From: Romanomermis culicivorax
Lineage: Eukaryota > Nematoda > Enoplea > Mermithida > Mermithidae
Assembly: GCA_963922205.1 (NCBI GenBank)
Contig: CAWUHX010000027.1
Span: 1,674,001 to 1,738,000 of the forward strand
Length of the DNA stretch: 64,000 nucleotides
Direction of reading: 5' to 3'
Position 1 is the stretch's first letter, and the number at the start of each line of letters is the position of its first letter. The notes below the pieces were generated by a model, which saw only the letters and a program-made list of their open reading frames with translations, had not been told where the DNA came from and ran no database searches. Positions 13,681 to 57,200 of this stretch are shown here, in pieces. The position numbers were made by a program, and so were the translations under genes.

Positions 13681-13883
13681 GCAGTATTTTTCGAACAGTG
13701 TTTGGCGATGGTTATGATGGCAACACGTTTACTCATTACGTGTCATGGCGAGGCTTGCATTGGTCCCACATTGGTGGGCCGCAAAACCTGCATCTTCAAT
13801 GGACGAGGTCGTCCTTCTTTCAAGGGTGGGAATGTCACGTGTCGCACGGCCGTACATCACCCCTTCATAACTATCCCAACACT

Positions 13884-13952: not shown

Positions 13953-14019
13953 TATTATTTTTCGAACAGTGTTTGGTGATGGTTACGATGGCAACGCGTT
14001 TACCCATTACGTGTCACTA

Positions 14020-14634
14020 TGTTGGGCACCCTGTTGATGCCAATTTCGTGTGGGGAAATCGACATGCAAATCGACGACAGGGACGACCAGCGGCGCAGAC
14101 ATTTGCATAGAATGGAGCGCCACCAAAAGACCAAAAAAGATAGTGAAAATCATTGTTCACTATATTTCGATTTTTATTATATTTTCGTTACTTTGCTGGC
14201 GTCCCTAAATAAAGTTCCCAGCAATTCGTCTTTATTTTGCATATATTTCTACTGTGGTCAATCCACATTTTTTATTATTGCGTCGGAAATATTGATTTAC
14301 ATATTTGTTGTTTATTATTTAGGATTTGTTATCGAACGTCGAAGGCGGAGGGCCAGAGGCCCAGGCGCCGGCTTACATCAAGTAAGTTCTGGGAAACCCC
14401 TTTCGGGTTATACCCAAGTAAGTTTATCCCTGAGGGGATTCCTTGTCTCATCTAGGAGACTGCGGAGGTCTTTGGTAAGGCCCCCGTATTTAGAACAAAG
14501 TTTATCTTTGTTGTTGTAGGTCTGGGGAACCGGACTGTTGCACTATCACCGAGGCTTAGCCAAGGGATCAGTTCTAACAGGTCAGTTCAGACCCACTCTT
14601 TTCTTACGCCTCTTAAGGAAAGACCTGCACAACA
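14020..14634 (+). repeat. Element 1, 5' LTR
   Basis: Begins TGTTGGG and ends ACAACA. Contains a polyadenylation signal AATAAA at 14208-14213. Splice-donor matches occur at 14382 (GTAAGT), 14418 (GTAAGT) and 14475 (GTAAGG), with a pyrimidine-rich acceptor ending TTGTTGTAG at 14519. The 166-codon frame inside the LTR is probably not a gene. A tRNA primer-binding site is expected just after it at about 14637, but I could not assign the tRNA. Confidence 0.93.
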
Positions 14635-14730
14635 AGTGGTGGCTTTTAACTCCTTACCACGGAACTTCGTAGTCAGACTAGGAGAAAAGAATATCCTCCA
14701 GGTTTCTACAGAAAGTTAGCAGGATTTAAA

Positions 14731-17700
14731 ATGCCTAACGAAAGGATACCGAGAGGTAATACTTTACGTAGATCACCACCCAGAGTGGCGAGTGCTGGGA
14801 ATCTAGTCAATTTGGGAGACGGAGATCAGCAACGGCAGGCTGCTCCGGACCCAGTGATCCCAGATCAAACTCCCGCGAGGGTTCAACCATTGCAACAAAA
14901 TGCAATGCATTTTACGCCTCAAGATGCAGGCGTACCAATTGACCGACCGCCAGCGATTGCCATCGATCCGCAGGAGGCAGGCCCGGCGAATCCGAACCCA
15001 GACGCCGATGGACCGCCGCAGCCAAATTTCAAAAGGTCACCGCCGCCAAAGGTCGAATTAGCAGGACCAAAAAGGGACGTCGTTACGCCCGAAATTCGAC
15101 CAAATTTCGAAGAAAGGGACCCCGAAATCGATCAAAGATTAGAGAGGATCCCCCAGGAACAAGAGCGATTCCAACCGCAGGAAAGAGCTCCCGAGATGTC
15201 CAATCAGGAGTTGGCGACGCAGTTACGCGAGTTGAAAGGGACCGTCGAAGCCTTGTTCGATATAATCGCGAATGCCGCCACAGAAGACAACAAAAGGGAA
15301 GCCGACAGGCGCCGACAGGAGCCGGATAGACAGGTTAGACCATGTAATAGGGGTGCAGAAAGAGACAACCGTCTCGCTGCTGAAATAAATGCAGGCGCAG
15401 GGCCTAGTAATAGGCCTGATATTGATGAAGGGCAAAGGCTTAATTTTGAGCCCAAAAGTTGGAGAGGTCCAGCTAGAGATCTTCGATTCGAAGGAGCTGA
15501 GCAATCGGCAGACTTCAGGAATCAAAGTCAGATAGCTCCGCAGCATCCAACTTTAACTAGAGTGGTCTATGATGGTAGAGGAAATATAGTTGATCCAAAT
15601 ACCCTTAGACCAGATCAATTGGCATGTTTCCCATATAGGGATTACAGGTTTGACAAAGACAATATGCCATCATATCAAGGAGGTGTACCACCTCAACGAG
15701 ATCCAAATAGGGTTATGCTGCAATCCCTGAACTCTGATCTTGATCCAGTATTAACAGCAGCTTATGATCAGAGGGAAGTGCCATCTAATAATTTGGCACA
15801 AGAGATTGTAGTTAGGAATATCGTTAAAGGTGTGTTACCCAAACTTTTAGATGAGGGTATGGTAAATCAGCAGGTGCTTAGCTTTTTAACAGCACTTGAA
15901 GGGGAATTCCGTAGGGATACACCCGAATCAGCTAAGTATGAAGCACTGCTGAGGCTTTCTAAAGGTAGACCGAAGGCTGTTGCAGGAGACAACATGACCT
16001 ATAGGGAGGCCAGGAGAGCCATTATTAATGTCTTTGCACCTGAGTGCAACCTGGAAATGTTAACCAGGGAGTTGTTTGAGATCCAACAAAGACCCAATGA
16101 ACAGGCCGTAGAGTTTTTAAAAAGGGTCAGTATATTAGTGGAACTAGTTAAGGGTGATTTAGACTATCAGTCTAAACAGAGACTGATTATTGATACCTTT
16201 ATTTACAAGAGTGATCCTACATTTCAGTCTGAACTGAAAAATTCAAAGCATACCTTTAGAACCTGGTATGATCTTGCAGTAGAGGTTCATGATATTGAAC
16301 GTAGGTACAAAAATGCCTTCCAGAGATATGGACCCAAGGGTACACAACAGGATCCTATAGTAATTAATGAAGTAGGTATGCCTAGTGGGCATGATCCTGA
16401 AATTGCCGTAGTTGCTAGGAACCAGTCAGAAGGATATCAACAAGGCCAGAGGCAAAGGTTTCGGCAACCATATCAAACCGTAGGTAATCAGGTACAGGCC
16501 CAAACCCAAAGGTCAAGGAGTGATTCTCCTGAAATAGAGGAGATTCCAGTTCGGGAAGCCCCTAGGGCTCAGACCGAAAAAGGTAAGAAAGAATCTCTTC
16601 TATTGAAAATCTCAAGAGAGATGGTACAACTGGTCGAAAGGTTCGACCAACTCCAGCAAAAGGTTGATAACAGGCAAATGGAAAATCGGTCTGATGTGGC
16701 CATACCTAGTACAAGTCAGGGAGGTCAAGTTTCCCGAGATCCAACTAAGCCATGGTGTGAGTTCCACAAGAACATAACACATAATACTGCAGACTGCAGG
16801 ACATTGAGAGTATTGTCCGAGCGCAGGAGCAGAGGTAGAGCCAGCTTCCCTACCTTCAACAGGGGAGGCTTCAACACTTTTGCGAGAGGTAACTACAGAG
16901 GTAGAGGAGGTTACCCAAATGCCAACTTTAATAGCAGAGGCAGAGGTGCTTATAATGTAGGCTATTCAGGTTATCAGGATAGCCATGAGAGTTACCAACA
17001 GAATTCAGATTATAATGAATTTCTGGAGTTTAAAAAACAGAAGGAGCTGCAGAAGCAGTTCCAACAGATGCAGCAGTACCAACAGCAAGCTGCATTACAG
17101 CATCCTCAGCCTCCTCAGGCTATTATGGGACCAACTCAGACTCTTCAACAGGGTCAATTCACAAATCAGCCACCTCAGAAGGATTATTCGAGTGTTATGG
17201 TTGCAAGGCAGTCTCAAATGAGTCCTTTAGGTGAAGTAAACCAGAGAGTGAGTTGCCCAAATGTTGTATTAGGTAGTATTGTGCAAATGAATGCAATTGC
17301 ACCACAACCTATAGTACCATCAGTACAAGTAATAAGGAGAGGCACACCAGCTAGTCCCCAGGAACAACATTTGCTGGATACGTACCCCAGAACGGCCCCA
17401 TTCCACATTGAGGTTGTTATAGGAGGTCGTAAGACAATGGCTTTAATTGACACAGGAGCTCAGTGCACTGTCATGTCGGCTAAGTTTCTGAAAGAAACTT
17501 TGGGCCCAGACTACACTGAATATCCAAGGATATTAAACGTCACCGTAGCCAACGGTAAGACAGTCCAAGCCCATGGGTATATCCAATTTAGGATGGATAC
17601 ATTGTGTGGACAGTTCCCCGTTAAAGCAATTGTAATTCCTGAAGCAGGTGAAAATGTCATTGTAGGAACAGACTTTTTGGCTCATCCTCAGGTAGGAGCC

Positions 17701-20700
17701 ATAATAGATTTCAGGAATAGGACGATGACGCTCAACAATTGTCAACAACGGATATACGTGACGCCGGACCAGCCCCAATCAAATTGTGGAGAGGTCATGA
17801 CCACGAGCGCCGCGGAATCCACAATGAGCGCCGCCGACCAATACCAGCCAAAGATTTGCCTGCTAAAGGTTTCGGTGCCAGTGGTGAGTGTGAATCCTAT
17901 CTACTTACCTAGTGGCACTGGTATACTTCTGAGAGCAAAGCTTTGGGATAAGGTAGGCGAAAATCGCCTTAATGGAATCATAATAGAGTCTGAAGACAAT
18001 GAAGAAAGGTTCCACATTGATAGTACCATAGTAGATGGTACAAAAGATGATTTTGTTGTTATGGTATCCAACAACACAGGATCAGGATGCCATTTGAAAA
18101 GAAATCAAATAATTGGCCATACTAATTCAGTGTTGTGTGATACTGATAACCAAGATCAACTTAAGGGGAAGATAGTTGAGGATTTGGAGAAGCTGCAAAC
18201 TTGTGCAGTCCAGGCTAGACCTGATTCGACTCAAGTGGATGAGAAAGAGTTCAAGGAAGCCTTGTACAATATGCTAGCTAAATCCAACATACCATCTGAA
18301 CAATTGGAACAAGCTTTACGATGTCTCGCAAAATATAGAGACGTGTTCAGCTTGCCCAGTGATCCTCCAACTACTACACCCTATTTGACCTGTAAAATAA
18401 ATACAGGGGATGCAGCACCTGTGGCAAAAAGGTACCACAGGACTGCCATAAATTTACGGCCACATGTTCGTGAGCATGTGCAAGATATGCTCAAGAAGGG
18501 TGTAATTGAGCCATCAAAGTCGCCTTGGGCAGCTCCGTTATTTCTAGTAGGTAAAAAGGATGGTACCAAGCGACCAGTAGTGGACTTTAGGGGTATAAAT
18601 GATGTTACCAAGGATGATAAGTATCCCATTCCTAGAATGGATGACTATCTAGACTGTTTAGGTAAAGCCAAATTTTATACTACCCTAGATCTCAAATCAG
18701 GATATTGGCAAGTGCCAATGGATGAAGAAAGCAAGGAGAAAACTGCTTTCATATGCCAAGAAGGGCTTTATCAGTTTAAAGTCATGCCCTTTGGCCTAAA
18801 AAATGCGCCAGCCGAATTCCAGCGTATGATGGAAAGAGTTTTGCATCCATATGTTTGGAAAATCTGTCTAGTCTACATAGACGACATTATTGTGTTCTCA
18901 AATACGTTTGAAGAACACCTAGTTAATCTAGAGCTAGTCCTGCAAGCTCTAAGAAAGGCTCATTTGACCTTGAAGCCGGAGAAGTGTGAATTCCTGCCTG
19001 AGAGAGTTCATTTTTTAGGACATATCTTAAATTCGGATGGAGTTTCCCCAGATCCGAAAAAGGTCAAAGCTATAAACGACTTCCCATTCCCAGAGTCTAA
19101 ACGTAAACTGCAAAGGTTTCTAGGTATGTTGCAGTGGTGTAAAAAGTTCATACCGGGTTTGGCTAAACACGCCGAACCGTTGTACAAACTAACTGGGAAG
19201 AACTGTGTTTGGGAAGTCACGGAGGTTCACCATCAGGCTTTTAGGAGCCTGAAAGAAGCACTATTGTCAGTGCCATTCCTTAGGTATCCGGTTTTGGACG
19301 GGTCTGCGGACTTTGTCCTTCAGACAGATGCCAGCGGAACGGCACTAGGAGCAGTCCTTTACCAGGAGACCAAGTCAGACCGCTGGGTAATTGCTTACAA
19401 TAGCAGAATTTTAAAAGCGGATGAGAAAAAGTGGTCAGCCACGGAAAGGGAATGCTTGGCAATTGTGTATGGCTTGAAGTTATACAAGCACTATTTAGTG
19501 GGTCATAAAGTGATCATAAGAACTGATCACAAACCTTTATTATCTATGAAGGTCAATGCCATGACCAATGGTAAGTTGAAGAGATGGTACTCATTCATCT
19601 CTCAGTTCAACCACAAACTAGAGTATGTGCCTGGAAAACAAAATGCCATGGCAGACTTTTTGTCCAGGATGGATGAACCAGACGATCAAGCGGAAAAGAT
19701 ACCGCCAAAATGGGAACACATGTTCTCAAAGGATAAACGAGAGTCCGAAAATCTGAAAGATCTTGAGGCACAGCTTATCGAGAGAAAACATCTCAATTTG
19801 GTGAAGAGATTCAGAATTCTGACAGATCGGAATCCTGAAGACGGTACTCCGTTATATCTGGAGCCAAAAGGTAAGAAGAATCAGAGGACTGATATGAGTC
19901 CGAGATTCACCCAAATTTATCCCGAAGATTCTGAGGGTGATCCAGAATCAAACTCGCCTGCAGACTTGATAAATGCCGTAACTACAAGGAGCATGGCGAA
20001 GGAAGCGGAGAAGAGCAATCAGGCTCAGATCCAGCCTGATGGCAATCAGGTCAACGAAAAAGTAAGTAGGGGAAACCAGGACAAACGTAAGGAAAAAAGA
20101 GTAACCTGGTTATACCCAGAAAAGGAACAAGAGTTTACTTTGGCAGACCCAAAGGAGAATGAATTACCAAAAGGGCTAATCAGAGATGATCTCATGGCCC
20201 TCTTGCAGAGAAAAGATCAGGTATTACAGCCATACTTTGATAGATTGGGTCCAAATGGGACAACCAAGTATCATAGTGGATTTTATATCCAAAACGAAGT
20301 GTTATACCGCGAAGCCGGACAGGGATCGGATGATCAGGTGGTCGTCCCATCCTGCCTTAGGGACAATACTTTGCACCAGTACCACGGTGCCGTGATGATG
20401 ACTCATCAGGGGTTCAAAAGGACCCTTGCTATGATCAAAAAACGGTTCTGGTGGCCAGGAATTGAAAAGGATGTCAGGCACTGGATCAAGTTTTGTCCAG
20501 TTTGTCAAATGGCTAATCAGGGAAACACAGAAATTCCACCACTGATACCAATTATTCCACAAGGTCCTTTTGACATTGTATCAGTGGATATCGTGGGTAT
20601 TTCTCCACTTAGTGAGAAGAGACCGTATGTCATAGTCTTTCAAGACTATTTTACAAAGTGGGTTGAAGCTGAACTGATCCCGGATCAGTCAGCTAGCACC

Positions 20701-21567
20701 GTTGTAGATACCTTTCTACAAGCTATTGTATTTAGGCACGGGACTCCACGGAGACTACTCAGCGATAGAGGAGGTTGTTTTACCTCAGATCTGATGAAGG
20801 AAATCTGCAAGTTGTTAGAGTGTCAAAAAATATTTACAACAGCCTACCATCCACAAGGAAATGGTATGGTAGAAAGGTTTAATCAGACACTCATCAAACA
20901 GCTCAGAAAGGTGGCCATCGAGGAAAAAGATAACTGGCCAAGATACTTGAGAGCCGTGGTGTTTGCATATAATGCCACACCACATGCAGCCACGGGGCAA
21001 TCCCCATTTTCGTTGCTTAGAGGTCACGAGGCAACCTTCGGGTTAAACTTATCGAAAGCATACGATATCGTAATGCCCGACAGCAATGCTGAGGCATACA
21101 AATTTGTGTTGACCAATCATTTAGTCAACCTTTACGAGGATATTGCCAAAAATATCCAGAGTGCTGCCGAAAAATCGAAGAAATACTTCGATAAAAAGTC
21201 CAAACAAAATGGATTTAAAGAAAAGGATTGGGTTCTGCTCAAAGTAGATAAGCAGAAAAAACTAGGGCTACCATGGTCCGGTCCGTTCATAGTTACGGAC
21301 ATTTCGCGAGAAGCAGAAAACGTTGTCACCATTGTGCATTGGGACAACCCGCTAAATCGCCAAACAGTTTCAATCAGCAGGTTGAAACATTTTCGTTACG
21401 AGACCACTAGGGTCTTGCCGCGAATAGCGCGAGCCAATCAGGACGCGCCACGTGACAAAAACACGTCACTTTCCAATATGGCACAAACAGTTACGACTGG
21501 AGCGCCGATTCAAATGAAATCATTTGAAAATTCGCTCAAGGCGAATCTATGCGCGATCTCGCGCTGA
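14731..21567 (+). CDS. gag-pol: Element 1 Gag-Pol polyprotein
   Basis: Single 2278-codon ORF starting at the first ATG after the leader. The order is: disordered Pro/Gln/Arg-rich N terminus; capsid-like helical region (about 350-530); a nucleocapsid-like zinc motif near 680 (C-x2-H-x4-H-x4-C in [15 protein letters not shown]); an RGG-rich stretch; aspartic protease with DTGA (about 907); reverse transcriptase with YIDD (about 1382); RNase H (about 1530-1650); integrase with an N-terminal HHCC finger (about 1880-1925), DDE residues near 1952, 2011 and 2047 (last spacing 35), and a GPY/F module (about 2181). No chromodomain and no gag/pol frameshift, as in Cer1-type elements. All catalytic motifs are intact, so it should be able to make capsids, cDNA and integrate. 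Confidence 0.95.
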
Positions 21568-21991: not shown

Positions 21992-22112
21992 ATGGGAAAG
22001 GGCGCGCGGAACCGCCAACAAGCTCCGACGCGCGAGTGGTCGCACACAGAGCGCCACGTTGAATACGGCAGGGCCCAGCACCGCCAAGACAACCGTTTTT
22101 TCTTTATTGACG
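21992..22112 (+). CDS. Element 1 ORF2, exon 1
   Basis: Short first exon (40 codons plus one base) from an ATG to the donor GTAAGT at 22113. The encoded end RQDNRFFFID matches the corresponding exon of element 2 (RQDDRFFFAD), upstream of the same donor in the same phase. That conservation between diverged elements is the main evidence that this is a real exon. The N-terminal part is basic and not conserved. Confidence 0.8.
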
Positions 22113-22797
22113 GTAAGTTTCGAACTTATTTTTATCGAATATTCTTGGAAACCGCAGGTAATGCCCAGAAGTCACTGGAAGACCAGCTCGGCGCCCCAAA
22201 GGGCAGACGAGGTTAGGACTTAGAGGGAACGAAAAATGGGAGTACTGAGAAACGGAAGCTCGAAGCCAAGCAGGGAATTTCCAATTTGGAAATATACCTG
22301 ATACCACCGAGAGCTATACGATTCAAGGGAAACCTAGAACCTTGGGTTCAGCCCGTTTTTAAAGTTTTATCATTCAAAAATTAATCAAAAATTATTTATT
22401 TTCAAATCAAATCAAATCATATCACTTTTTCGATATAAAATTCATTAAAAATTATCAATCTCGAGCGCTATAAAAATTGTAAATACAGCGCCATAAATGG
22501 AGCGTAGTTGGTCGCTCAAGCAGCTGGTCAGAGATTGGTGTCCGATCAAGTGGTGGACAATCGGATCAGGTCTACCCTCCCCAACATATAGAGGTAGCAA
22601 GGGTAAGATTTGGTAAGGTGTTAGTTGCCTACCAGCTCAATGTTTGTATATCAGTGGCTCACCTAACAATCTGCACTAAACTTAATTTTCTGCGAAACTT
22701 AACCCGCTTGGTGTTGTGGTGCTGGTGTAGTATAGACCCTAGAAATGCGCTGAAAAAAGGGGAATAAACACTAAAATTAATAGTACTTTATGTTTAG
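22113..22797 (+). other. Intron inside element 1 ORF2
   Basis: 685 bp with donor GTAAGT and an acceptor ending TATGTTTAG. Phase 1, identical in phase and location to the 213-bp intron of element 2 (54067-54279). It contains several stops in every frame. Because an LTR element replicates through RNA, intron retention in the genomic copy implies that unspliced RNA is the template. Confidence 0.8.
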
Positions 22798-25700
22798 ATT
22801 ATAACGTCAAACGGGCCGTACGAATCCACGAACTGGATCAGTGGTTTAAAGCCACATTTGGGTACTGGCCGGCCAATCCCAAGGAACCTCGAATGGTAGA
22901 CATCGGGAAGGTCAGCCAGGTACTCCATTTTATCCGAGAAGTGTCAATCTTCAGAGGACAACCAGTTTGTGGTTTCGACGTTGAAAAAGTCAACCAGGAT
23001 AAGGTCGCCGCCTTGTTCAAAACAAGGGAGGTCGACAATCCAATGGGAAAACAGTTTGCCCGATATATCAGCTTCGCGCTAACGAACGGTCAAACTTACG
23101 TTATTGATACAACGTCGATGATGATCAAAGAGTGGACCAGCCTCCACGACTTCTTGAACTCCGACATGCTGTTCGCCGGATATGCCGTACTGGAAGATCT
23201 GGTGAGTATCTATAACGTTTGTGGCGCAGGGCGAGAGAATAAGGATAGGGACAAAACTGTCCCCTTACGGGAATTTCTAAGGAAGACCAAAGGTCGATAC
23301 TTTGACTTAGACCGTTTCGCCCTCACCATGGTAGGAGTAAACCTGGAGAAAAAATGCTTTCAGACAGGTATATGTCCCGAAACCTTTCGGTTAAAGGGAC
23401 TGTTCACGGAATTTTATTTGATAGACATGGGCCCCTACCAATATGACTTTTCGTTAAAAGCGAACCGTGATCGGTTTGCAAAAAGGGGTATATTGCCGGA
23501 AGAGCTCAGATACGCCGCTCTAGACGCATACTACTCCTTATTGGTCATGTTTGCCGCCATTCACTATGGCATGGCCGATCAACTGCTTATGCAAATGCAG
23601 ATTTTCGACCATGACAAGGTGGATCCCAAACAGATTAACACCATTGCCCTCCATTTTTATCAGCAATATCTAATGATTCCGGGCAATGTGAATCGAGAAA
23701 TGGGGCTAGGTACCCCAGTTATGGAAACCGATCAGGTTCAACCAAACATGGTCTACCACATGATGAAGTGTGAGATGTATAACCGTTGGGCGGTGCAAAT
23801 GCAGGGAAATAACACAGGTTATTATACCGCGCCCACGGAGTGTAATCCAGTCCGTCCGCAGGGAGTTCAGTTGCCAAGTGGTTTCTACCCACTACTTCCA
23901 AGAGATAACAAACCACTGAAGGACGACGGATACACCACAGATAGTGATCCCGACGAAATCCAGGACGTCCAGATACCAGACTGGGTAAATATTTCAAAAG
24001 ATATCCTGGAAAATCTCAAGTCAGGCGGAGCCTACTGGGATTTAGACGGGAAAATTTCTTTAACTTTATACGAAAACGCCAAGCTATACTGGCAACAAGC
24101 CGGGAAGCCCGATACCATTCCGCAAGAGGTGTTTTCCTCTAATAACCACTACCCAGTGGGTATCGAGGGCCATAGACAGGCCTATAAGACCAATTTTTAT
24201 ACGCCAAACTTGGCAAAGATTTCAGGTATGCTGGATGAGCGAAACTTCCCAGAGTTAGAGGTCATCTGCAAATTCATGCCATTGGCTTATCATTTGGCAT
24301 GGCCTCATTCTAGAGCGGAATGCGACTATGAAACTAACGCTCTGCTAAACTATAACTTTCTAAATAGTTATACTAAAGAAGGCCAGGAAATGATAAAGAA
24401 AATGTCCTGGAAGTCAGGCGACCGCCTGGCTTACTATTTAGAATTAGCAGCGACGCTACCGCCATCGGAACCCCGCTTTCCATCTAAAAAAGGGGTATAC
24501 GCATGGCAGAATCGGTTCGGTTTTGTCCCGCTACGATTTCGAGAAGCCGAGGAGATCCTACAAATTGGCGACGACAAATCGTTATTGAAGGACGGAGCTT
24601 ACAAGGTAAATCCTTATTTTTATGTAACTTTTTACTACGTAGGCTTCGAGACTTTAACGCCGGGACTGCGGTATCCCATGACGGAAGACGCATCGCCAAC
24701 CGACTACCCGATTACCTACGCACCGAGAAATCCGCTCGAGCTCAGACCGGAGTTTGTCAGCAAAAGCTTCCGGGAGAGAACAATCGCTTCGGAAATGCCC
24801 GGGTATACACTTACATATACCCCAGCCGGTGAGTTAATATCTAAGGTACCGGTAAATCGTCCCTCAACTTCCCAAACGGCGCAAGCCGGAGGGACGGGAC
24901 AGGTCAAAGCGCAGCCGCAGGCGCTAGCGCCGGTGGCCAAAGCTACACCAGCTTTGGACACTGCTGCTACGCAGGCAGCTGCAGTAGTTGTCGTGGTGCC
25001 GCCGCCAATCCAACCAGCGGTGGCACAGCCGACTCAAGTACCTCAAGTACAACAACCGGCCGAGCCTGAGCCAGAGGTTGTCACCATAATGCAATCAGTA
25101 CCTCCAGCACCAGCTGTTTTGCCAGCTAAAGTAAAACAGCTCTTGCCGAAGATACGAAATTCAGACTCTGAGTCCAGTTCAGAGGAGGATGTAGAAGAAG
25201 AAGAAGAGGGTGAAATCCTCGAATCTGAGGGCCAGACATCAGAGAATAAGGATGCGATGGAGGCCAAAACTCAGAAACAGGCTCTTGAGGAGGAGAAAAT
25301 CCAGACTCAAATTGACGAAGCAGTCACCAAAATGTCAGGGATCGATGTCAGACTGGAGAAGATGCAGGAAGCATCCCAGGAGATACCTGTGAAGGCCAAA
25401 GATCCTAAGGATCATGACCGTCAAGCGAAGCAAGAGGCCCTACAGGCCAAAATTCAGGAACAAAGAAGGCTGACGCAGCAGGAATTCCTGCGTCAGAGGG
25501 CAATCCAGAGAAAGCTGAAGGAGCAGGCACTAGCCGACGATAGCTCAGATTCAGCCATTGCAGCGACAGAGCTGATGCGGAGGGGAAGAATTGCCGAGGA
25601 AGGTATTCCTGGAATTTATTCCCCAGACAAAGTTCAGCAGATGTTAGCTGAAGGGATGTCGGAAAAATTTATCCGACACCTAGCCAAGGAAAAAGTAAGG

Positions 25701-27299
25701 CGTAGAAAGAGGATAGGTAAGGCCAAGCGACGCAGACTTGCAGCTCAGGGACAGCAGCAACAAGGAGCGGCCGCCACCGGATCCGAAAACGACGCCTACG
25801 ATACGGCCGAAGAAACGACGACCCCACAATACTCGATGAGCCAAAAGTCGAGATCGGAGACTTCAAAAAGTCAGACGCGAACGGAGACCTCCATAGGCCA
25901 GACAAAATCGGACAGGACAACAGGGTCCACTGCGACAACATCGTACACTCAGACGCGAACGGTATCGAAAACCGGCGGAGAGGTTAGTACTTATTCTGGC
26001 AAAAGTAAATCCGTGCCCTCCAGCTATACCGCAAGAAGTAGCAAACCTGCGGGAAGCGTATTGGTGAAGCCCGATCTTGAATCGGAGGAAAAATTGATCA
26101 AGAAGGTCAAACTGAATGTGGTAGCTAGTAGACCCGAAAGGGAACCACAGCAGTTTGTCACTCCTGGTCAATTAGCCGAAACTCTGATTGATTATTGGGA
26201 GTGGCAACGGGAACAAAGGCGCTTAATTGGGCCGATCTCATTTGAAAATCCAGAGGTCGCCAATTATTTCGCCTTTGATCGGCAAGAACGGCCGATAATT
26301 TACAGAATGGTCAATGATGCCATGGCCGAGATTCACGAAAATTACCGCCAGCAATTCGAAATGCAAGGCGGATTTATGTTCGACGGAGAGCGCATCCCTG
26401 AGGAGATCTGGGAATGGATAATTTTAATTCTCATCCCCAGATGGCTTCAGGACTACGATGCCTCAGACGTCTTCACGGCCATTAGGTATGTGACCCTAAT
26501 GATTTTTCTTCAGTTGGACTTCGCTCCGATCACGCCAACGGCAATTGGTAGGTGGTATGCCCAGGCGTGTTCGTTTGCGAACAGACAACTAGTCGTTGAG
26601 GCCCAGGGAAACCGCGTAGACGATGTCTACATTGCAGCCTTTAATCAGTATATTTTTATGGGCTCGCAAAGGTTAAACCAGATGGGTGTTAAGAGGAAGG
26701 CACCAGGCGATGACAGGTCGCAAGCTGATAAATTTCAGCGAACGGCTGCCAAGAGCCCGAGTAAGTTCAAGGTGCCTAGACTCCCTCCGGCTAAGAAGCA
26801 ACCACCGATGATACAACAATCATCGGCTACGACCAGCCAGAGGTCATATAGTGAAGCTGCTAGCACTTCTTACAAAAGTCCGCTTTCTCGATCAAAATCA
26901 ATATCATCAAAATCTCTTAATTCAACTTATCGGACACAAAAACCTCAGCGCAGCAGCTCCACTAGCAGTGGTCAAAGGCAGCAGGGGAGAGACGATATGT
27001 TCTCAAACCCGGCCCCGTACAGGGCTAGACCGGGGTATGACCAAGGTCAACCCAGGGGAGGCTTCAGAGGGCGCCCTCAGCGACCTTACAGAGGCCGAGG
27101 AACCTGGCAACACCAAGGTCAAGACCCGGATGCTGAATTTCATAATCCGAATTTTATTCCGCTAGGTAGACGCGGCGGAAGCCAACAAGGCCAAAATAGA
27201 GGCCAGGATGGAGGTCAAACCCGAGGCCAACCAGGTCAGAGGGGGTACTATCAAGGTAGACCTCGAGCAGGCTACCGAGGCGGCGGGCAGCAGCAGTAA
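22798..27299 (+). CDS. Element 1 ORF2, exon 2: DEDDy 3'-5' exonuclease protein with RGG tail
   Basis: With exon 1 this gives about 1540 residues. Residues ~97-290 form a 3'-5' exonuclease domain of the RNase D/WRN/MUT-7 class. Exo I is GFDVEK (Asp101, Glu103), Exo II is GYAVLEDL (Asp174) and Exo III is YAALDAY (Tyr279, Asp283), so all five DEDDy residues are present. A conserved middle region (about 300-650) has no family I recognise. Then come a Pro/Ala-rich linker, an acidic stretch, a Gln/Glu/Lys-rich probable coiled coil, a basic [19 protein letters not shown] nuclear localisation signal, a helical module also found in element 2 ORF3, and a long Arg-Gly-Gly tail. No signal peptide or membrane segment, so it is not an envelope. 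The first ATG of exon 2 is internal: homology to element 2 extends upstream to the acceptor. Confidence 0.9.
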
Positions 27300-28044
27300 A
27301 TAGCCGCAAAATTTTGGCCCAAAAATTTCTTTTTCGTACATATATTTTCTACTTATTTCATAAAACATAAAACCCAAAAACACTAATAAAATCACAAAAA
27401 ATCCAAAAAAATCAAAAAACAAAAAATCCAAAAACATTTCTTTTCGGTGCTGCTGGCCATCAAAAATCTCTTTTTTGACAAAACCGGTGCAAAAACCCAA
27501 CCGTAAAAAATATTTTAACTTTTGGCCACATTCTTGCTCAAATTTTTTAGCGCATTTTAAATTTTGTGATATCCGTACAACCCCGCGTCGTCTTTTTGTA
27601 TCGTAATATAATCTCGTATTTTAGTTTAATTTAGAAAAAATAGAGACGCGGGAAGTCGATTTGCATGCGGTTAGACCCACGGCCAACGAATTGACACAGC
27701 ATGCAGACCGAGCGGCCGAGCCCGAAGCCGACCACACATCCGGCACCGACGTTTACGTCATACTCCTTAGGGCAGGAGGTTATTCCATCAATGCCGAGGT
27801 CAAAATGGACGTCACTTGCCAGCCATTGCGGCGAAGCCCTTGGTATTCGTTGTGTCCAACGACCAGCACAGGAGTTCTATTAGGACAGACTGTGAAACGG
27901 GAGTCCGGTGAGACAAACTGTTTATCAGGAGTCAGCCGGAATTGTAGATTTTTTCTTTTTTGATTAATTCTTTTTAATGCCGGGGTAACCCGGCCAAAAG
28001 TTTTTTTTTCTACCTCCCGTAGGTCGGTTTCGACGCGCGAGGGA
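27300..28044 (+). other. Element 1 3' non-coding region
   Basis: AT-rich then mixed sequence between the ORF2 stop and the 3' LTR. Small open frames on both strands here are unsupported. A short purine run GCGAGGGA abutting the LTR at 28044 may be the polypurine tract. Confidence 0.5.
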
Positions 28045-28659
28045 TGTTGGGCACCCTGTTGATGCCAATTTCGTGTGGGGAAATCGACATGCAAATCGAC
28101 GACAGGGACGACCAGCGGCGCAGACATTTGCATAGAATGGAGCGCCACCAAAAGACCAAAAAAGATAGTGAAAATCATTGTTCACTATATTTCGATTTTT
28201 ATTATATTTTCGTTACTTTGCTGGCGTCCCTAAATAAAGTTCCCAGCAATTCGTCTTTATTTTGCATATATTTCTACTGTGGTCAATCCACATTTTTTAT
28301 TATTGCGTCGGAAATATTGATTTACATATTTGTTGTTTATTATTTAGGATTTGTTATCGAACGTCGAAGGCGGAGGGCCAGAGGCCCAGGCGCCGGCTTA
28401 CATCAAGTAAGTTCTGGGAAACCCCTTTCGGGTTATACCCAAGTAAGTTTATCCCTGAGGGGATTCCTTGTCTCATCTAGGAGACTGCGGAGGTCTTTGG
28501 TAAGGCCCCCGTATTTAGAACAAAGTTTATCTTTGTTGTTGTAGGTCTGGGGAACCGGACTGTTGCACTATCACCGAGGCTTAGCCAAGGGATCAGTTCT
28601 AACAGGTCAGTTCAGACCCACTCTTTTCTTACGCCTCTTAAGGAAAGACCTGCACAACA
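28045..28659 (+). repeat. Element 1, 3' LTR
   Basis: Matches the 5' LTR over its whole 615-bp length with no difference noticed by eye. Followed by the ACTA target duplication at 28660-28663. Its AATAAA (28233-28238) would serve for 3' end formation. Confidence 0.93.
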
Positions 28660-28992
28660 ACTATGCTGTATATTTTTCTACAGTAATCCACACTACTAAC
28701 TGTGCAACGGTAGTCCTTGTAATGCATACTTTGATTGACGTACTGATGACTGCTTTCTACTTGCCAAATGTGACACTATACTATAAGAAGAATCTTTACG
28801 TTACAAGTCATTTGACAGCGATCTAGGACACGTGGCACCTAAGAAAACTCCGGATTTAAGTGGAAGGTAGAATTTTTGTGTTACAGTAATCCTCCCGACT
28901 CTGTATGACTCCTGCATTCTTCTTCGGAAAAATGCCACTAACTGGAATTTATCCTACTTATGAATTTTCTTAAGGTAGAAAATTTTACGAAC

Positions 28993-46773: not shown

Positions 46774-47360
46774 TGTTGTGGAGCAATTTGACGTATTTGT
46801 AAAGCTCGTGTCGTTTGCGAGAAAGATCGGCAAGTTTGATTTGGAAAGATCGTGACGAGACCACCGAAGAGGCGTGGCTACAATGTGAAGAAATTATGAA
46901 AGTGTTCTTTCATTAGTTTGCGTTGTACTGTAGCCGAAAGGTTGTGTTTTTTGGTATTTGTCTGAAAAGTGTGTAGCGGCTTTGTACATTAGTAAATTGT
47001 GTGAAAAGTCTGTTCTAAGTTGAGTCAAACTATTTGGAAAATAGTTTGAGTGAGCGAGTGAAACTCCTAAGCGGTTAAGAATTTACGGCGCGAGTTTCGG
47101 CATCCGAAAACCTTTGACGACCTGAGCGAAGATCCCTGGATAAAATTGACACAGCGCTCTCTACGAGCCCGTCAATCTCCTGCGTTCGACTATCGTTGCG
47201 TTGATTCCGTAAAACACTCCGAGTGTTTCGTCTACAGCGTTCCGCACGCTCTTCTACGTTCCGTACGTCTCTTCTAACGCGCGATAAATCGTCGAGCTAC
47301 ACAGCTAATTTCTCATCTGCGTTCCGTCGTCTACGCTTCTTCAATTTCTCACGCACGACA
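46774..47360 (+). repeat. Element 2, 5' LTR
   Basis: Starts TGTTGTGG and ends CACGACA. After a five-base spacer, TGGTGACCGTACC (47366-47378) is the probable tRNA primer-binding site; I could not assign the tRNA. Confidence 0.9.
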
Positions 47361-47436
47361 TAATTTGGTGACCGTACCAGCTCGTCTAAAGGTTGAGGAA
47401 ACGCCGAAATTTGCGAAAAATCGAAAATCCGAAAAA

Positions 47437-50400
47437 ATGGAAGAAAACCGCACGCGTCGCTCTACTGCGCTTGGTTACGAAAAAGGTTTCTATAAGAAAC
47501 TAGCGAATCCCGATGATCGAGAAATCGAAAATTTCGACTGCGAAAACGCGAATCTACCGCTTCTCTACGAAGCAGATAAGCGTAATTTCGATCTACCGGA
47601 AACGTCCGCTCCGCTGAAAACGCGAAAAACCTCGCGATCTCTATCTCCAAAAATCGTCGAAAACCGAAAATTCAACTTTCTAAAATCGAAACCGAAGGAT
47701 ACCGATCCTCGAAAAATCTTCGATAATGACGCGTATATCGACGTAATGCAAAAATGCGATGCAGAAATGATAAATTTTCGTGGCGACGCTACTAACGCGT
47801 TAAGCGAAATCGTAACTATCGCGACTCAACAGCGAAAACTTCTAGATGAGTTTAAAACCGAAATCGAAGCGATGCGAGCTCAAAAAGAAGAGCTATTGAA
47901 ACCGAATGTTCCTGAAATCGAAAATATCGCGAGACCTACGAGCTCTTACGCTCAGTCTCAGAAATCGACTAAACCGAAAAACGCCACTAGCGATCGAAAA
48001 AGTCAACTTAGTTTTCGTGGAATAATCGACGATGACGATGATCTGATCATCCCGACACAAACGTTTGACCGCTCTAACGCGCTAAACGCGCTAAACTCTC
48101 AAATAAATTTTCCGTCTATCCCACCTTCTCAGGTGCATAGATCTTTCGCCGATGACGAAACGAGAATTAAGACTATCTGTAAAAAGATAGCGCCGCAAAA
48201 ACTAGATAATTCGACCCGAAATCAACAAGTTTTGAAATTCTTCATTGCGCTCGAAAACGAGTTCGGTCTTGATGCGTCTGAGTATGTGAAACTTCACACG
48301 TTGCGTCGCTTGACTTGCGATGGTGCTCTAAACACCATAAGAGATGTCCGATCCTACGATGAAGCGAAACAGATTCTGATGTGTATGAATGCACCGAATT
48401 GCGACCAAGATACGCTCCAATGCGAGCTCCAGTCTATCGCTCCGTTTGAAACCGAAGATCCGTCAGCTTTCTTAAATCGAATCAGCACCTACGTACATCT
48501 ACTGTACTATGACAGAAGCGCACAGTATCGCCATAGAAAAGTTATCACAACTTTTCTTTGGAAAATGCCGGAAATTTACAGAGTCTCGATTGACGCGAGT
48601 ACTCTAGAAACTATCACTGACTTAGCTATAGCCGTCGCGAAAGTTCAGAAAATTCAGCGAGCGAATAAACAGTCAACTGTCAGAGTAGAACAACCTATAC
48701 TGGTTAATACACTCGAAAATCCGTCGGAAGAGCAACCAGCTCAGTCGCGCTTCACAGATAATTCGAAACCTCGATTCAGAGATAACTCTCAATCCCGAAA
48801 CAGAGATGACTCTAGACAGCGAAATAGCGTGAGATTTCAAGAAAATTCGACTCTAGCGAAAACTAAAGAATTGGAAGAAAGCATAAAACGAGTCCTAGAA
48901 AAGTTCGGAATCCGAGAAAATTCGCAAAATGCTAACAATTTCGAAAATCGAAGATCGCGATTCGATCGCGGGACGAGTCCGAACTTTCGGAATAGAGAAA
49001 ACATTCCTATACGGGATTTCTCTCAGAATCGAAATTTCCAACGAAATCAGTCACGTGAACGACCGGTAAAGTATTGCACCTATCATGGTCAATGTAAACA
49101 CGACAGCTCCGAATGCTATCAATTGAAACCACAGGCTTCTCAGCCTCGTCAACAGCAACCGAATCATCAATGGCAAAACCATAATTGGCGTCCTCGTTTT
49201 CAACAAACTACGCGTAACTACACGCTCAATCAGAATCAAAATTTTGATCGAAATAACCGATTTTTCAATCGCGATAATCGAAACTATCAGAGAGATGTTG
49301 CAAACATTTCTCTCTGCGATTCCGAATCCCGACAAGAAAAGATAATCGAGAAGCACTACTACTATCCGATGAATAACTCACAGTCTATACAGACTCAGCT
49401 AACTTCTCCGAAATCTTCGCAACAAGTTTTGTCATCAGAAACCAAAACGGTGATTAACTCACCTAAAACTTTTGTTCCCATGAAACCGACAACCAGTACA
49501 GCTAACATGCTTGAACCGACAGAAGCTTCTAAAGCTACAAACTTCTTCGTCGCTCCGGGAATCACTGATTTCACAATCGAAAAACCTACTGAACCGTGGA
49601 TCGCGAGATCTAGCGTGTGTCGAATCGAAGAATGTTCGCAAAAAGACATCAAACTGCTGAGCTTGTACGCTCCTACTCGTGCTTTTCATATCCATGCCGA
49701 AATCGGAAAAACCAAAACGAAAGCGTTGATCGATACCGGTGCTCAGTGTTCAGTCATTTCCTCATGTCTAGCTCAACGCTCTTTGGGGATTGACTATGAT
49801 ACTTTGGAAACATCCGCGCAGATAAAAGTAGCCGACGGTGCTATCGTCGATGCCAGAGGTCCGATAATCTTCAAAATCAGTTCATCTTTCGGAACGCATC
49901 TAGTACGATGCTGGATACTACCTACTACAGGAGAGCAATGCCTCCTAGGAACCGATTTCCTAGTGCATCCGAGCGTTCGAGCCGTAATAAACTTTCGCGA
50001 AAATTTCATCAGAATCGGAGACGTTCAACAAGAACTAAACCTAGTTTTGAAACCGATCGAAAAAGCGCCCTATGACGAAGTATTTTCAAATACTTCTACG
50101 GGACAAAGTCAAACGCAAATCGTGAAAATCGACAGATCGCTACCGATCTTGAATATCTCGTCATGCTACGTAGAACCGAATTGTCAAACGTGGGTAAACG
50201 GGAAAGTCTTCCCTTTCACAAACGAAAGCTTCAAAAGCGTCATAGTTCAACCCGTGAACTTCGGAAAAGAAAATTGCGAATATCCGATCGAACTTGCGAT
50301 AATCAACATAACTGAGGGCAAATGTCCACTATTATTTGTCAATAATAGTGCGAACGGCATCCATCTAGAACCTAACCAGCTCATCGCTGAGGTTAAATTC

Positions 50401-53400
50401 AGACTCGAAGAATCGAACATGACCATCGCGTCGCTAAGCGATCATGAAGAAGACTATGAACCAGCAACGTTGGTTAAAGACCAGTCAACCATGTCTGAAG
50501 AAGAAAAACTTCAACACGCTCTCGAAAAAATGACCGAAAAGTCGAATATCGACGATGAAGATAGAAAAATCGCTATCGAAGTCTTCAAGCAATACCGCGA
50601 TGTTTTCAGTCTCCCTGGAGATCAGCCTACTCTCACTCACGAGTTAACGGTCTCTATAGACACCGGTGATGCAAAACCAGTCGCGAAACACTACTATCGT
50701 GCACCGATTGAGCAAAGACCAATGGTTCGTCAGAAAATCCAAGAAATGCTAGAAAAAGGCCTCATCGAACCTTCGCGATCACCGTGGGCAGCACCTATGT
50801 TTCTGGTAACGAAAAAAGATGGAAGTTGGAGACCCGTAGTCGATTATAGAGGTATAAATGAAGTTACTCCTAGCGATAAGTTTCCGATCCCGAGAATCGA
50901 TGACTATCTAGATGCTCTAGGCAACGCAAGATTTTTCTCAACTCTAGACTTAAAAGCAGGGTATTGGCAAATCCCTTTAGACATCGCTTCACGCGATAAA
51001 ACTACTTTCGTCAGTCAAGAAGGCTTGTTTCGTTTCAAAGTTCTACCTTTCGGTTTGAAAAATGCTCCCGCTGAATTTCAAAGACTAATGGAACGGATCC
51101 TGCATCCATATATCTGGAAAATCTGTTTGGTCTATATCGACGATATCATAGTCTTTTCGCAAACGTATAACGATCATCTAGCACATATTCAACTGATCTT
51201 TGATGCTCTTCGTGACGCGAATCTAACACTAAGACCAGATAAATGCGATTTTGTGCCGAAACAAGTAAAATTTCTTGGTCATCTGCTAAGTGAAAATGGA
51301 ATCTCGCCTGATCCCGAAAAGGTCTCCGCGATCGTAAACTATGAAATGCCAAAAACGGTCAAAGATCTTCAAAGTTTTTTGGGCCTAGTCCAATGGTGTA
51401 GACGATTCATACCGAATCTTGCCACTCTTTCGCGACCGCTCTATCAACTTCTACGAAAAAACGCGAAATATGAAATAAGTGAAGAACATCGTACAGCGTT
51501 TAACGAGATTAAAACATCTCTAACCTCGACTCCTTTCTTGCGATATCCTGTCTATAACGACAAAAAATCGAAATTCATCATCCAAACTGATGCTAGCACA
51601 ACTGCTATCGGTGCGATTTTGTATCAAGAAAATGAAACTGATCAATGGGTCATCGCGTATAATAGTAGAGTTCTGTCTGACGTAGAAACCCGCTACAGTA
51701 CGACTGAGCGCGAATGTCTCGCAATCGTAGAAGCTTTTCGGTGGTACAGACACTATGTCTATGGTCAAAAAGTAACGGTCAGAACTGATCATAAACCCTT
51801 GCAATGGATCAAAGAAGAAAAACATCGAAACTCGCGACTTCAGAACTTCGCAATAAAGCTGCAAGATTACGACTATCGTGTTGAATATGTGAAAGGCAAA
51901 GAAAATGCTTGTGCTGATTTTCTATCACGAAATGAACCTCGCGCTAAAGTGAAGTCAAAGACTAGCGAAGAAGTAACAAATGAAATATTCAGACCGACGT
52001 TTCGCAAAGAGAAAAAGACTGTCGCAGCAGCCATAACAAGGTCAATGACGCAAAAAGAAGAAAGAAGTAAAGTGCCGAAGTTTGAAGAAGATTTCCAACA
52101 GCCAGAAAAACGGCTAGTAACCATAGAATCACCGGAAGAAATCAAAGAAGCTCAAAGAAAAGACCCGTACATCGCGAAGTTGATAAAAGTCCTAGAACAA
52201 ATGCAAATCTCTACGATTTCATCTGCATTTCATACCGAAAACGAAATAGTGTACCGAACATCAAAACAAGCTAATACAGCTTCCGCGATAGTAGTTCCAA
52301 CTACTTTGATAGAAAGTGTTTTGTATCAATTTCACGGCGCAAAGATTTTAAGCCATCAAGGTCATAGACGCACTACAGCGATGATTCGTCAGCATTTCTG
52401 GTGGCCGAAAATGGAAGAATCGATAATAAAGTGGATCAAAACATGTAAAACATGTCAACAAACAACTTCTCAGTTGCCGAAACCTCCTCCTTTGATGCCG
52501 ATTCAACCGAAATATCCATTTGAAATCGTCGCGACCGACATAGTAAACATATCCCCTCTGGGTGAGAAAAGATCATACGTCATCGTATTTCAAGACTACT
52601 TCACTAAATGGGTAAGCGCTCATTTGATTCCGGATCAAAAAGCAGCCACTATAGTCGAAAGTTTCGTAAACAACGTAGTTTTGGTTCATGGCAGCCCGAA
52701 ACATCTACTATCAGATCAGGGTTCAGGATTCACTTCAAACTTGATGAAAGACATCGCGAAACTACTAAAAGTCCAGAAAATCAATACCACTGCGTATCAT
52801 CCGCAATGTAACGGAATGGTCGAAAGATTCAATCAAACGTTGATTTCGCAACTCAAAAAATTCACCGCTGAAGATCCCGATAATTGGGAACGGTATCTAC
52901 CTTTCGCGACATTCGCCTATAACGCTGTTCCTCACACAGCTACTCACTTTTCTCCGTTTCGACTTTTGCGAGGGTATGAACCCAGAATCGCTATAGATTT
53001 CGACTGCGCTAAAAGTCTAACGTTACCACTAAACTACGATGCGTATCAGTACATCTTCATGCAAGCGCAACTAAGGCTATACAACGAAGTTTCCGAAAAC
53101 TTAAAAAACGCGTCCGAATCGCATAAACGATACTTCGATAAAAAAGCGAAAGAGCAGACATACGATCTAAACGATCTCATACTGTTGCTTAATAACAAAA
53201 AAGCAACTAAAATCGACAAAGACTATATCGGACCCTTCGTAGTGGTCGAAAACTCCGAAATTACGAAAAACGTCATAACTATCGATAGTTTAGATTGTCC
53301 TGGACAATCTCAGAAAGTCTCACTTTCTCGCGTAAAGCCATACATGCCTCGCACGGCATCGGCAATCTTAGAAACGGAAGACAACGGTCCTCCAAAAATT

Positions 53401-53412
53401 TGTAAACATTAA
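47437..53412 (+). CDS. gag-pol: Element 2 Gag-Pol polyprotein
   Basis: A frame open from the LTR edge. The first ATG is at 47437, giving 1991 codons; the reading from a TTG at 47365 overlaps the primer-binding site and is unlikely. Order: basic N terminus; capsid-like helices (about 240-420); Arg/Asn/Gln-rich stretch; a zinc motif [14 protein letters not shown] (about 545); protease DTGA (about 766); RT with YIDD (about 1232); RNase H with QTDAST (about 1383); integrase HHCC finger (about 1632); DDE near 1700, 1759 and 1795 (last spacing 35); a GPF motif. All active sites are intact. Codon use favours NNC/CGA and differs from element 1, evidence of independent history within the same family. 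Confidence 0.95.
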
Positions 53413-53900: not shown

Positions 53901-54066
53901 GTGATGACGAGTGAATCGGAGGCGACGACGTCGCAAGAATCGGTGATATCAACGTCGCTTATAAATCCGCCGCCGATATTTCGAAAAGCTTTCAACAATC
54001 AAGACCGATACGTGGCGTATCAGAAAAAGCAATACCGTCAAGACGACAGATTTTTCTTTGCTGATG
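53901..54066 (+). CDS. Element 2 ORF2, exon 1
   Basis: From an ATG to the donor GTAAGT at 54067 (55 codons plus one base). Ends RQDDRFFFAD, homologous to exon 1 of element 1. The N terminus is Ser/Thr/Glu-rich and unrelated to element 1. Confidence 0.8.
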
Positions 54067-54279: not shown

Positions 54280-57200
54280 AATACAATATCAAAAGAATGA
54301 TCCGAATCACGGAATTCGAACGTTGGTTCGAGACGGTATATGCGAGACCGCTCAACGTGCTACGCGACCCTCAATACGTTGAGAGCGGACAATTGAAAGG
54401 CGCCCTATCGGCATACGCGAAACCGAACTTCCGCGGCCATGTGCTAGTTGGATTCGACGTCGAAAAGATCTCGACTACCCAACTATACATACACAAGAAA
54501 ACGAAGATGAATATAGTGAACCAGAACGCGACCCACGTCGCTCGGTTCGTCCAGCTGGGTTTTCCCACTGGATACACTATAATGTTTGACGCCTTAGCGG
54601 CGACACCCGAGGACTGGACGGCTTTCTACGAGTTCGTGTCGGCCCCTAAAACGATCGTAATCGGATTCGATCAAGCCGACGATTGGAAATGTCTCAAAGA
54701 CATGCACGGACGAGAGTTTTACTCATCCGATGCTCGAAAAACGCACTCTAACGTGCTCGCGCCTAGTATACTGGTCGACGTCCAGATTATACTAGAAAAT
54801 ATCGAACGCTCACCCGAAAAGTGGGAGAGAGCTCGTCCGATCGGTTTGTGCCCCGAAAATAAAAAATTGAAAGGAATCGTCGCCGACGCGTTCGCGCTAG
54901 ACGTAGAACGCTACACGTTGTATTTTCCGCAAGCAAACGATCGCATCGCCCAAGCAGGCAAACCCGACGATCAAGTTTTGACGTATTCGATTCTAGATGC
55001 GTACTATCCGATACTAATGTTTTTGGCGTACGGGCGCTACGGCTTCGTAGACAGCGTCTACGACAGCATGCAAATCTTCCCGCATGATTTCTTGCCACCC
55101 GAATACATCCACATCGCTGCGCAAAATTTGTACGACAACACCAATATCGATCGCGAAGGCGACGAGAAGGGCGCTTTCGGTGTCGTAGATCCGACGCTCT
55201 CGAAGAGTATGCTGCATGCGATAATGCGCGATGAAATCTTGGCGTTAAATCGAATCATACACTTCGACTATAACATTCCGAACATGCGATACTGTACGTA
55301 TAATCACGTAAACGTGGAGCACTCCACTAAACCGCTCGGATTGAAAATGCATCCGACAAAACTACCGACGATAAAAGGTAGCAAAAACAACACGTCTTCG
55401 TTGACCGACGACGGAAAGATTGAACCGTATGACGACGCCGCCGAATGCGCGAAAGTAATTGAGCGAGCTCTACGCTCCAATGACGTAGTTAGCATCCATC
55501 ACGAAGTCGGCGCACCTATGTCTTTGCTATTTCTTTCCGAAATAGACCAAAACATGGTGACAAGTGATGACGCGAAACAAATAAACTTCGAATTAATCGT
55601 AAACGATCCGTTCACCACCTACGGCCCTCCGGAAACGTGGCCTATCTACAAAATAAAATGCGACCATCAGATCGCCGAAAAGCCGGCACTAACGCCGCTC
55701 TACTCGGTTCCGAACCATCATCAATGGATGAATGCTGTTCGCGGAACTATGCCGCTAGTCGCTCACGTCTGCTCCCCACACTCCGAAATGGAACTGCGAG
55801 CAATCCTCAAAAATGAGATCTCGAAACTGTTATCGAAAAGTGACAGTATCGACATAGATCTTATTTGCGAGCAAAATTGGGTGAAACGAGACGGCACGTT
55901 CGAATTCGAACTAATGGAATGGACCAGTCGCTTGCCCTACAACGAAAAGAATCGCAGCGACAGCAAACGACCGATATATGCGAATCGATATTTTATGCGA
56001 CAGATCATATTCAAAAACGACTGTTTTCCAGTCTCCAATGAAACAGATCTTGTAACGAAAAAGAAGTATAGGGAAAACCCCTATTACTACTTTTCTTACA
56101 ATTCGCCGATTTTAATGTCGAGAAAATGTGAGCAACTCATTTGCTTTCCGCCGAGTCATACTCTAACAATGAGTTCGAACTTGCCCGTAATACCGACCGC
56201 CATATTGTCGGGAGAAAGTCCCACAAAAACGCCTACACAGGCTCCTACACAATCCACCGCGGAAACCGAATTCGATGCGGAAACGGCGATGGCCGTCGAT
56301 TCGTTGCTCAAACAAACCGCCGAAGAATCGTTCGCGGTAAAAACAGAACTACCGTCCGAATCCGACGTCATACAACTCGAAAGCGAAGAAGAAGACGTAT
56401 CCACAGCTGATACTACTGCACCTGTAACGACGACTAAAACAACGTCCTCGTTCACTCCGTTATCCAAAAACTTGTCGAGCAGTACATTCGAATTGGAATC
56501 GGAGGAGATAAAGAAACGAAACATACAAGAGGTAGCCGCGTTGGTGAAAACCTCATCGATGTACGATGTTTCGCGTATGGAAGAGGAAGAGGAAGACGAA
56601 TCGAAAATGGTACCTCCAAAAATCATACCTACACGATATCGGATACCGAAGAAAAACGAGGAAGACACCTCTACCCCGATAAGTACCGAAACCGCCACTC
56701 CAGTTTTGGAGGTGAAAGACGACCGATTGTGCGATGAACACGGCGTACCTATTCGCAACGTTAGAGTGTATCAGTTCTCACTGTTTCGCAGACGAAATGC
56801 CATCGATAAACAGTTGCGCACAATACAGGATTATCTGGACACGCATCCAGAAGATCCTAATTACGTGCCCCCATCCAAAAAACGCCGCGAATCACGAGAA
56901 GACACTCGTAGTAGAGAACGAAAACAAACCGAATCACGGTCACGGGAACGACCCTCGCGGTCTACTGCTCGCAAAGAAAGCGACGATTATGACAGTCGAA
57001 AATACCGGCATGGTGAATATGCTTCGAACGAGCGTCCTAGAAAATTTCACCGAGACCGCGATTATAGACAAGAACATCCTAGCGAATCGAAAGATCGACA
57101 AAAAAGAATCGAATGGGCTAGCGCCTTGAAACGCGACCAATTGAAAAAAGAACAGTTAGAGAGCCAACAGCCTCCGACGACTGGCTCCGAACCAATGATC

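Follow-up and report, generated by a model that had tools for sequence, protein, structure and literature searches.

Among the long terminal repeat (LTR) retrotransposons of bdelloid rotifers, Juno and Vesta carry a third open reading frame (ORF3) of the DEDDy exonuclease type (Rodriguez et al. 2017, PMC5408684). In the available text of that study, the DEDDy ORFs are ascribed to at least two acquisitions, RNA 3'-end processing is suggested as their role, and the ORF3s show neither an unambiguous correlation with copy number nor a significant departure from neutrality. In nematodes, the C. elegans element Cer1 makes an accessory protein, CERV, that functions in the export of genomic RNA (PMC10309623). 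Here, we describe a 64,000-nucleotide window of the genome of Romanomermis culicivorax, a mosquito-parasitic mermithid nematode (contig CAWUHX010000027.1; G000:C27:1674001-1738000). The nematode host is supported by R. culicivorax proteins that match this genome exactly over 179 of 181 and 169 of 169 residues, by longest exact stretches of 19 to 215 residues across 12 such proteins, and by 50 matches to the cuticle-collagen family PF01484. The window contains two intact Ty3/gypsy elements (here element 1 and element 2), each with a further long frame (ORF2) 3' of gag-pol, and homology traced through relatives in the same genome shows the N-terminal part of ORF2 to be a predicted DEDDy exonuclease domain.

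The original prediction of this domain had held that no described lineage carries it, and had named an existing publication as grounds for giving it up. The former claim was wrong in view of Juno and Vesta: the kind is already known because DEDDy ORFs in rotifer LTR elements were described in 2017. As to the latter, the publication concerns rotifers, and among the matches listed from the open-licence PMC literature none describes a nematode element of this kind. What is new here is the nematode host, the presence in two LTR clades, the high copy number, the long spliced ORF2, the intact DEDD set, and the evidence of selection.

Results

A predicted exonuclease domain in ORF2

The motifs originally predicted for element 1 are present, in the frame given for them, and have counterparts in element 2. 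All lie on the forward strand:

22798..23650, +, element 1, predicted DEDDy 3'-5' exonuclease domain (profile alignment to PF01612-positive relatives; low-confidence models)
22971..22988, +, element 1, Exo I, GFDVEK (D79 and E81 of the open frame; sequence and alignment)
23178..23201, +, element 1, Exo II, GYAVLEDL (D152; sequence and alignment)
23511..23531, +, element 1, Exo III, YAALDAY (Y257 and D261; sequence and alignment)
54450-54467, +, element 2, Exo I
54681-54683, +, element 2, Exo II aspartate
54984-55004, +, element 2, Exo III

The two ORF2s are homologous (23% identity over 654 columns, E 7e-35). Both have GFDVEK, the Exo II aspartate, and Y-x3-D-A-Y, which gives the ordered series of D-x-E in Exo I, D in Exo II, and Y-x3-D in Exo III with all five DEDDy positions kept. 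A chance motif was considered and rejected because these residues are conserved in element 2 at 23% identity and because the profile tests described below were positive.

Several direct comparisons weigh against this assignment. Neither window ORF2 has a direct match to PF01612 at an E value of 10, let alone one above the cut-off; a profile of the window lineage searched against the PDB returned Psb28 at 0.006 and no DEDD chain; and the score of this lineage against RNase D does not rise above shuffle level. Other searches with the window ORF2s were equally unproductive. The Pfam scan gave a single chance row (Abhydrolase_9, E 0.9), NCBIfam gave nothing useful, PHROGs gave only two short matches, both to uncharacterised families (E 0.15 and 0.043), and a sequence search of the PDB gave no DEDD chain. 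Among 5.8 billion proteins, with a length filter that excluded short fragments, there was no match to the element 1 ORF2 or to both ORF2s (E 0.01 and 10). In IMG/VR, 103 stretches matched the pattern and none was confirmed.

The assignment instead comes through relatives. A PF01612 search of the R. culicivorax assembly (359,112,060 bases in 595 contigs) returned 119 places at E <=10, 95 of them over the curated cut-off (6 of these only with in-frame neighbours). We examined 20 loci returned by this search, which all belong to one family, together with 14 further stretches. The relatives are of two kinds, a third family close to the window elements and a family encoding a 608-amino-acid protein (here the 608-aa family), plus one divergent relative, L060. 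The third family accounts for 8 of the 14 stretches, with 61-76% identity to element 1 in pol (46% over one variable piece) and 37-40% in ORF2 (31% over one short piece). In the five third-family ORF2s scanned, PF01612 is the sole Pfam match, at E 0.0026-0.016 and 15.5-18.0 bits, below the cut-off of 23.6. The 608-aa family lies well over it (E 1.4e-10, 41.7 bits).

Profile comparison connects the window lineage to this family. Aligned with a nine-row profile of the 608-aa family, a seven-row profile of the window lineage gives a probability of 93.6 (E 2.2e-7; 212 columns), and all three Exo motifs are in register. A profile of elements 1 and 2 alone also matches (E 2.4e-7), again with the catalytic positions in register. 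In controls, the exonuclease part of the seven-row profile scored 53.2, compared to 13.6 when reversed, 12.7 for the middle region, and at most 24.6 for 100 column shuffles. The best PDB matches of the 608-aa family profile are WRN (1.1e-6 and 1.2e-5) and a mut-7 homologue (1.7e-5), matches that do not place the root of the domain and do not establish the MUT-7-like host origin suggested in the original prediction. Low-confidence models of the exonuclease region rank DEDD exonucleases at the top, and the structures matched include Egalitarian and EXD1. Thus, the PF01612 check proposed with the original prediction failed for the window ORF2s themselves and succeeded through the 608-aa family, which provides the only profile homology to accepted DEDDy members. 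We regard the domain identity of the window ORF2s as settled through these relatives in the same genome.

ORF2 is multicopy and under purifying selection

The exonuclease region of element 1 is present in at least 40 copies at 98-100% identity (40 scored of 613 loose candidates) and that of element 2 in at least 125 (125 scored of 3427 loose candidates), which brings the scored copies across the two families to at least 165. In the 28 element 1 copies most similar among the 40 scored, the window copy included, we counted 23 synonymous and 7 nonsynonymous variants, for a ratio of nonsynonymous to synonymous polymorphism (pN/pS) of 0.08. These copies have no stops and no changes at the five DEDDy residues (28/28), and one carries G146R within the Exo II motif. 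For element 2, we sampled 40 of the 125 copies, choosing only ones whose matched stretch is free of stops (the 20 best plus another 20 spread over the range). Their variants, 210 synonymous and 114 nonsynonymous, give a pN/pS of 0.16, which falls to 0.08 when only those present in at least two copies are counted. D63, E65, Y239, and D243 are kept in all 40, and the Exo II aspartate in 39. The four acidic residues and the tyrosine are therefore retained across three diverged families in nearly all copies examined.

At 20 element 2 loci taken with their flanks, pN/pS was lowest in the exonuclease (0.06), followed by the middle region (0.10) and the linker (0.15); at 8 element 1 loci, the corresponding values were 0.067, 0.014, and 0.036. 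Since pN/pS at these 8 loci is also low in the middle region and linker, the constraint applies to the whole gene and not to the exonuclease alone. Taken together, these data show purifying selection on the ORF2 copies of two families, with pN/pS of 0.06-0.16 in the exonuclease.

ORF2 is a predicted two-exon gene

ORF2 follows pol in the env position and is predicted in silico to consist of two exons:

21992..22112, +, element 1 ORF2 exon 1 (predicted), ending RQDNRFFFID, in the same phase as in element 2 and the third family
22113..22797, +, element 1 ORF2 intron (predicted), GTAAG...TTTAG, from splice signals
22798..27299, +, element 1 ORF2 exon 2, within the open frame 22743-27299 (1518 amino acids)
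53904..54066, +, element 2 ORF2 exon 1 (predicted), ending RQDDRFFFAD, from splice signals
54280..57335, +, element 2 ORF2 exon 2 with the exonuclease domain, within the open frame 54270-57335

In both elements, GTAAG directly follows the exon 1 end in the same phase. The third family, in which exon 1 was located via its donor site, has the corresponding end RQNNRYFLVD in two of three copies and PQNNRYFLVD in the other, again followed by GTAAG in the same phase. An acceptor, TTTAG, directly precedes the codons for (D)YNVKR, (E)YNIKR, or (D)HNIRR in 10/10 sequences examined. Splicing of ORF2 is thus supported in silico by splice signals conserved between three families. The original prediction had already spoken of a spliced ORF2, and the start it chose, 22798, proves to be the first base of exon 2, with the acceptor exactly there.

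Downstream of the exonuclease domain, ORF2 contains a second conserved region, a long low-complexity linker that is basic in part by composition, and, in element 1, a basic tail:

24000..24662, +, element 1, second conserved region, common to element 2 (55230-56120) and the third family, without a Pfam match
26190..26777, +, element 1, ORF2 C-terminal region (approximately codons 1150-1345), common to the third family by eye (tail of L056)
27054..27296, +, element 1, RG-/GQ-rich basic tail of RNA-binding-like composition

The second conserved region has PHS, NRF/NRY, and NPY motifs in elements 1 and 2 and in the third family. In element 2, ORF2 ends at 1021 amino acids and a 297-amino-acid frame overlaps it next, while 30 of the 125 scored copies have an open frame of 1273 amino acids. 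The element 1 C-terminal region (26190-26777) weakly matches this overlapping frame (E 0.015).

Architecture of the two elements

Both elements have LTRs enclosing protease, reverse transcriptase, RNase H, and integrase in the order expected of Ty3/gypsy:

14019..14635, +, element 1 5' LTR (617-bp repeat unit; LTR proper approximately 14020-14634)
14650..21567, +, element 1 gag-pol open frame, 2305 amino acids, with protease, reverse transcriptase, RNase H, H2C2, and integrase (domain scan of 15100-21567)
28044..28660, +, element 1 3' LTR (direct repeat)
46774..47365, +, element 2 5' LTR, 592 bp (direct repeat)
47278..53412, +, element 2 gag-pol open frame, 2044 amino acids, with protease, reverse transcriptase, RNase H, H2C2, and integrase
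57199..58092, +, element 2 overlapping downstream frame, 297 amino acids
58434..59025, +, element 2 3' LTR (direct repeat)

The 617-bp repeats of element 1 are 100% identical, leaving the element intact, and its LTR has TG...CA ends flanked by a 4-bp duplication, ACTA, as read by eye. The originally predicted setting, an intact Ty3/gypsy element with a DEDDy domain where env would lie, is borne out by the identical LTRs, the ordered pol domains, and the homology via relatives. As neither LTR pair (617 bp and 592 bp) contains differences, both insertions are recent.

Immediately upstream of element 1, two tandem copies (13562-14016; 95% identical and 271 bp apart) each contain a transfer RNA (tRNA)-like gene (13612-13685 and 13884-13955) with the unusual anticodon ATA. 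Element 1 starts 2-3 bp past the second copy and element 2 starts 468 bp from a tRNA-Asn gene; insertion of the two elements is possibly linked to tRNA genes. Just beyond element 1, on the reverse strand (28954-29475), an exon-like frame resembles by eye a papain-type cysteine protease.

Two clades of relatives

The 608-aa family is a distinct 7.5-kb LTR family with its PF01612 protein after pol (C69:273025-280551; L050, L037, and L105). One copy is flanked by 620-bp repeats that are 99.8% identical and were taken as LTRs. The 608-aa protein lies 3' of a frame with RNase H and integrase-type domains. In the two frames scanned, Pfam matched a zinc knuckle, RNase H, and zinc domains of integrase, and the stretch where a reverse transcriptase would be expected gave no Pfam match at an E value of 10. 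These copies may lack reverse transcriptase or have a very diverged one, and the putative gypsy kinship of the family rests on RNase H and integrase similarity. In L060 (1477-3000), serine replaces tyrosine four residues before the Exo III aspartate, with the acidic residues kept. A predicted R. culicivorax protein in UniRef, P0010, has both PF00929 and PF01612 annotations, with a different exonuclease domain attached to part of the 608-aa family; either two gene models have been run together or a piece of the transposon has become exonised.

Integrase similarity and exonuclease similarity agree in placing elements 1 and 2 with the third family and in setting them apart from the 608-aa family, which groups with L060 and L061. 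This agreement, which comes from sequence comparisons and not from a tree, suggests that the ORF was inherited with pol within each clade. The C-terminal regions of the window lineage and the 608-aa family show no significant match (score 17.3, where 50 shuffles reach 18.0), and it is therefore not proven that both clades go back to one acquisition of the entire ORF2.

Discussion

We consider it likely that element 1 is a recently inserted Ty3/gypsy element with a two-exon DEDDy accessory gene whose product is an active nuclease needed for propagation. Judging from its sequence, ORF2 would encode a metal-dependent 3'-5' exonuclease made from a spliced messenger RNA, without which the element would not propagate. 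The RG-rich basic tail would hold the protein on the element's RNA, and the exonuclease would trim RNA 3' ends within the element's ribonucleoprotein, whether those of the genomic RNA, the primer tRNA, or a processed host RNA. Such tail-anchored trimming is our leading guess as to the role, although a tentative one; 3'-end processing of the complementary DNA seems an unlikely role.

A different possibility is that ORF2 trims or degrades host small interfering RNAs (siRNAs) or silencing intermediates. Its predicted fold is common to mut-7/Nibbler and the EXD proteins of small-RNA pathways, yet fold similarity does not reveal a substrate, and a mut-7-like silencing role would be self-limiting, as Rodriguez et al. 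point out (PMC5408684). R. culicivorax is reported, in the available text, to have neither Piwi nor detectable 5'-triphosphate small RNAs (PMC4323106), so other siRNAs would have to be the target. We find this counter-silencing role rather doubtful. Less probable still is a broader proposal, in which an ancient element-encoded DEDDy exonuclease has been kept by the LTR clades of a nematode without Piwi-interacting RNAs as an enzyme removing host siRNAs or their precursors; if true, it would be the counterpart, in an animal retrotransposon, of the RNA interference suppressors of viruses. The domain could also be a DEDD-fold RNA-binding module that packages or transports the element's RNA with no need of catalysis, in the manner of Maelstrom, EXD1, or Egalitarian. 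Maelstrom and EXD1 are named as inactive DEDD derivatives by Rodriguez et al. (PMC5408684), Cer1 uses its spliced accessory protein for genomic RNA export (PMC10309623), and both the Egalitarian and EXD1 matches of the low-confidence models and the RG-rich tail and partly basic linker would fit. Against such a module stands the near-complete retention of the four acidic residues and the tyrosine in three diverged families. Pseudo-nucleases usually lose their catalytic residues, and we consider an RNA-binding module improbable.

Two further readings carry much less weight. The rotifer ORF3s, with their lack of clear copy-number correlation or departure from neutrality (PMC5408684), would allow ORF2 to be a captured host gene, a passenger that the element can do without, but purifying selection in two families argues otherwise, as does the parallel grouping of integrase and exonuclease, which suggests inheritance of the ORF with pol; a mere passenger is very unlikely. 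The position after pol is also where the env-like protein of a retrovirus-like element would stand, its exonuclease resemblance being incidental. That reading, already disfavoured, is scarcely credible given the profile and residue evidence for DEDDy and a hydropathy scan, the only criterion applied, that revealed no stretch hydrophobic enough to span a membrane (the highest 19-residue Kyte-Doolittle mean was 1.5).

If the exonuclease is active and needed for propagation, it would either add a new step to the retrotransposon cycle or counter a defence based on small RNAs. LTR elements with DEDDy ORFs are present in animal phyla that are only distantly related, and whereas no clear selective benefit is seen for the rotifer ORFs in the available account, the nematode copies, with their selection and intact catalytic site, offer a testable enzyme.

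Compared to cellular DEDDy exonucleases (WRN, mut-7/Nibbler, EXD2, Rrp6, and RNase D; PF01612), ORF2 shares the catalytic residues and a profile match through relatives, and the low-confidence models of one half would give it a similar fold. Unlike them, it lies within a retrotransposon gene, and the window sequences have diverged too far to match PF01612 directly. CERV of Cer1 resembles ORF2 as an accessory protein from a spliced mRNA in a nematode LTR element. It differs in having 517 amino acids, five exons of which three, at the 5' end, use the gag frame, and structured domains H, M, and G, with G being GTPase-like; the comparison is by description, and the word exonuclease is absent from the main text on CERV (PMC10309623). 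The closest likeness is to Juno and Vesta (and to Athena/Terminon): there, as here, more than one lineage of elements has a DEDDy ORF behind gag and pol where env would otherwise stand, and the ORF has no transmembrane domain (PMC5408684). In these comparisons, drawn from the available description and not from sequence, three of the four lineages in rotifers encode a dUTPase and the scanned stretches of elements 1 and 2 yielded none, and the catalytic set is DEED in rotifer ORF3s, whereas DEDD is kept here (PMC5408684). The host is a rotifer in one case and a nematode in the other, and the nematode ORF2 differs further from rotifer ORF3 in its predicted splicing, its length of up to 1518 amino acids, its second conserved region, and the evidence of selection upon it.
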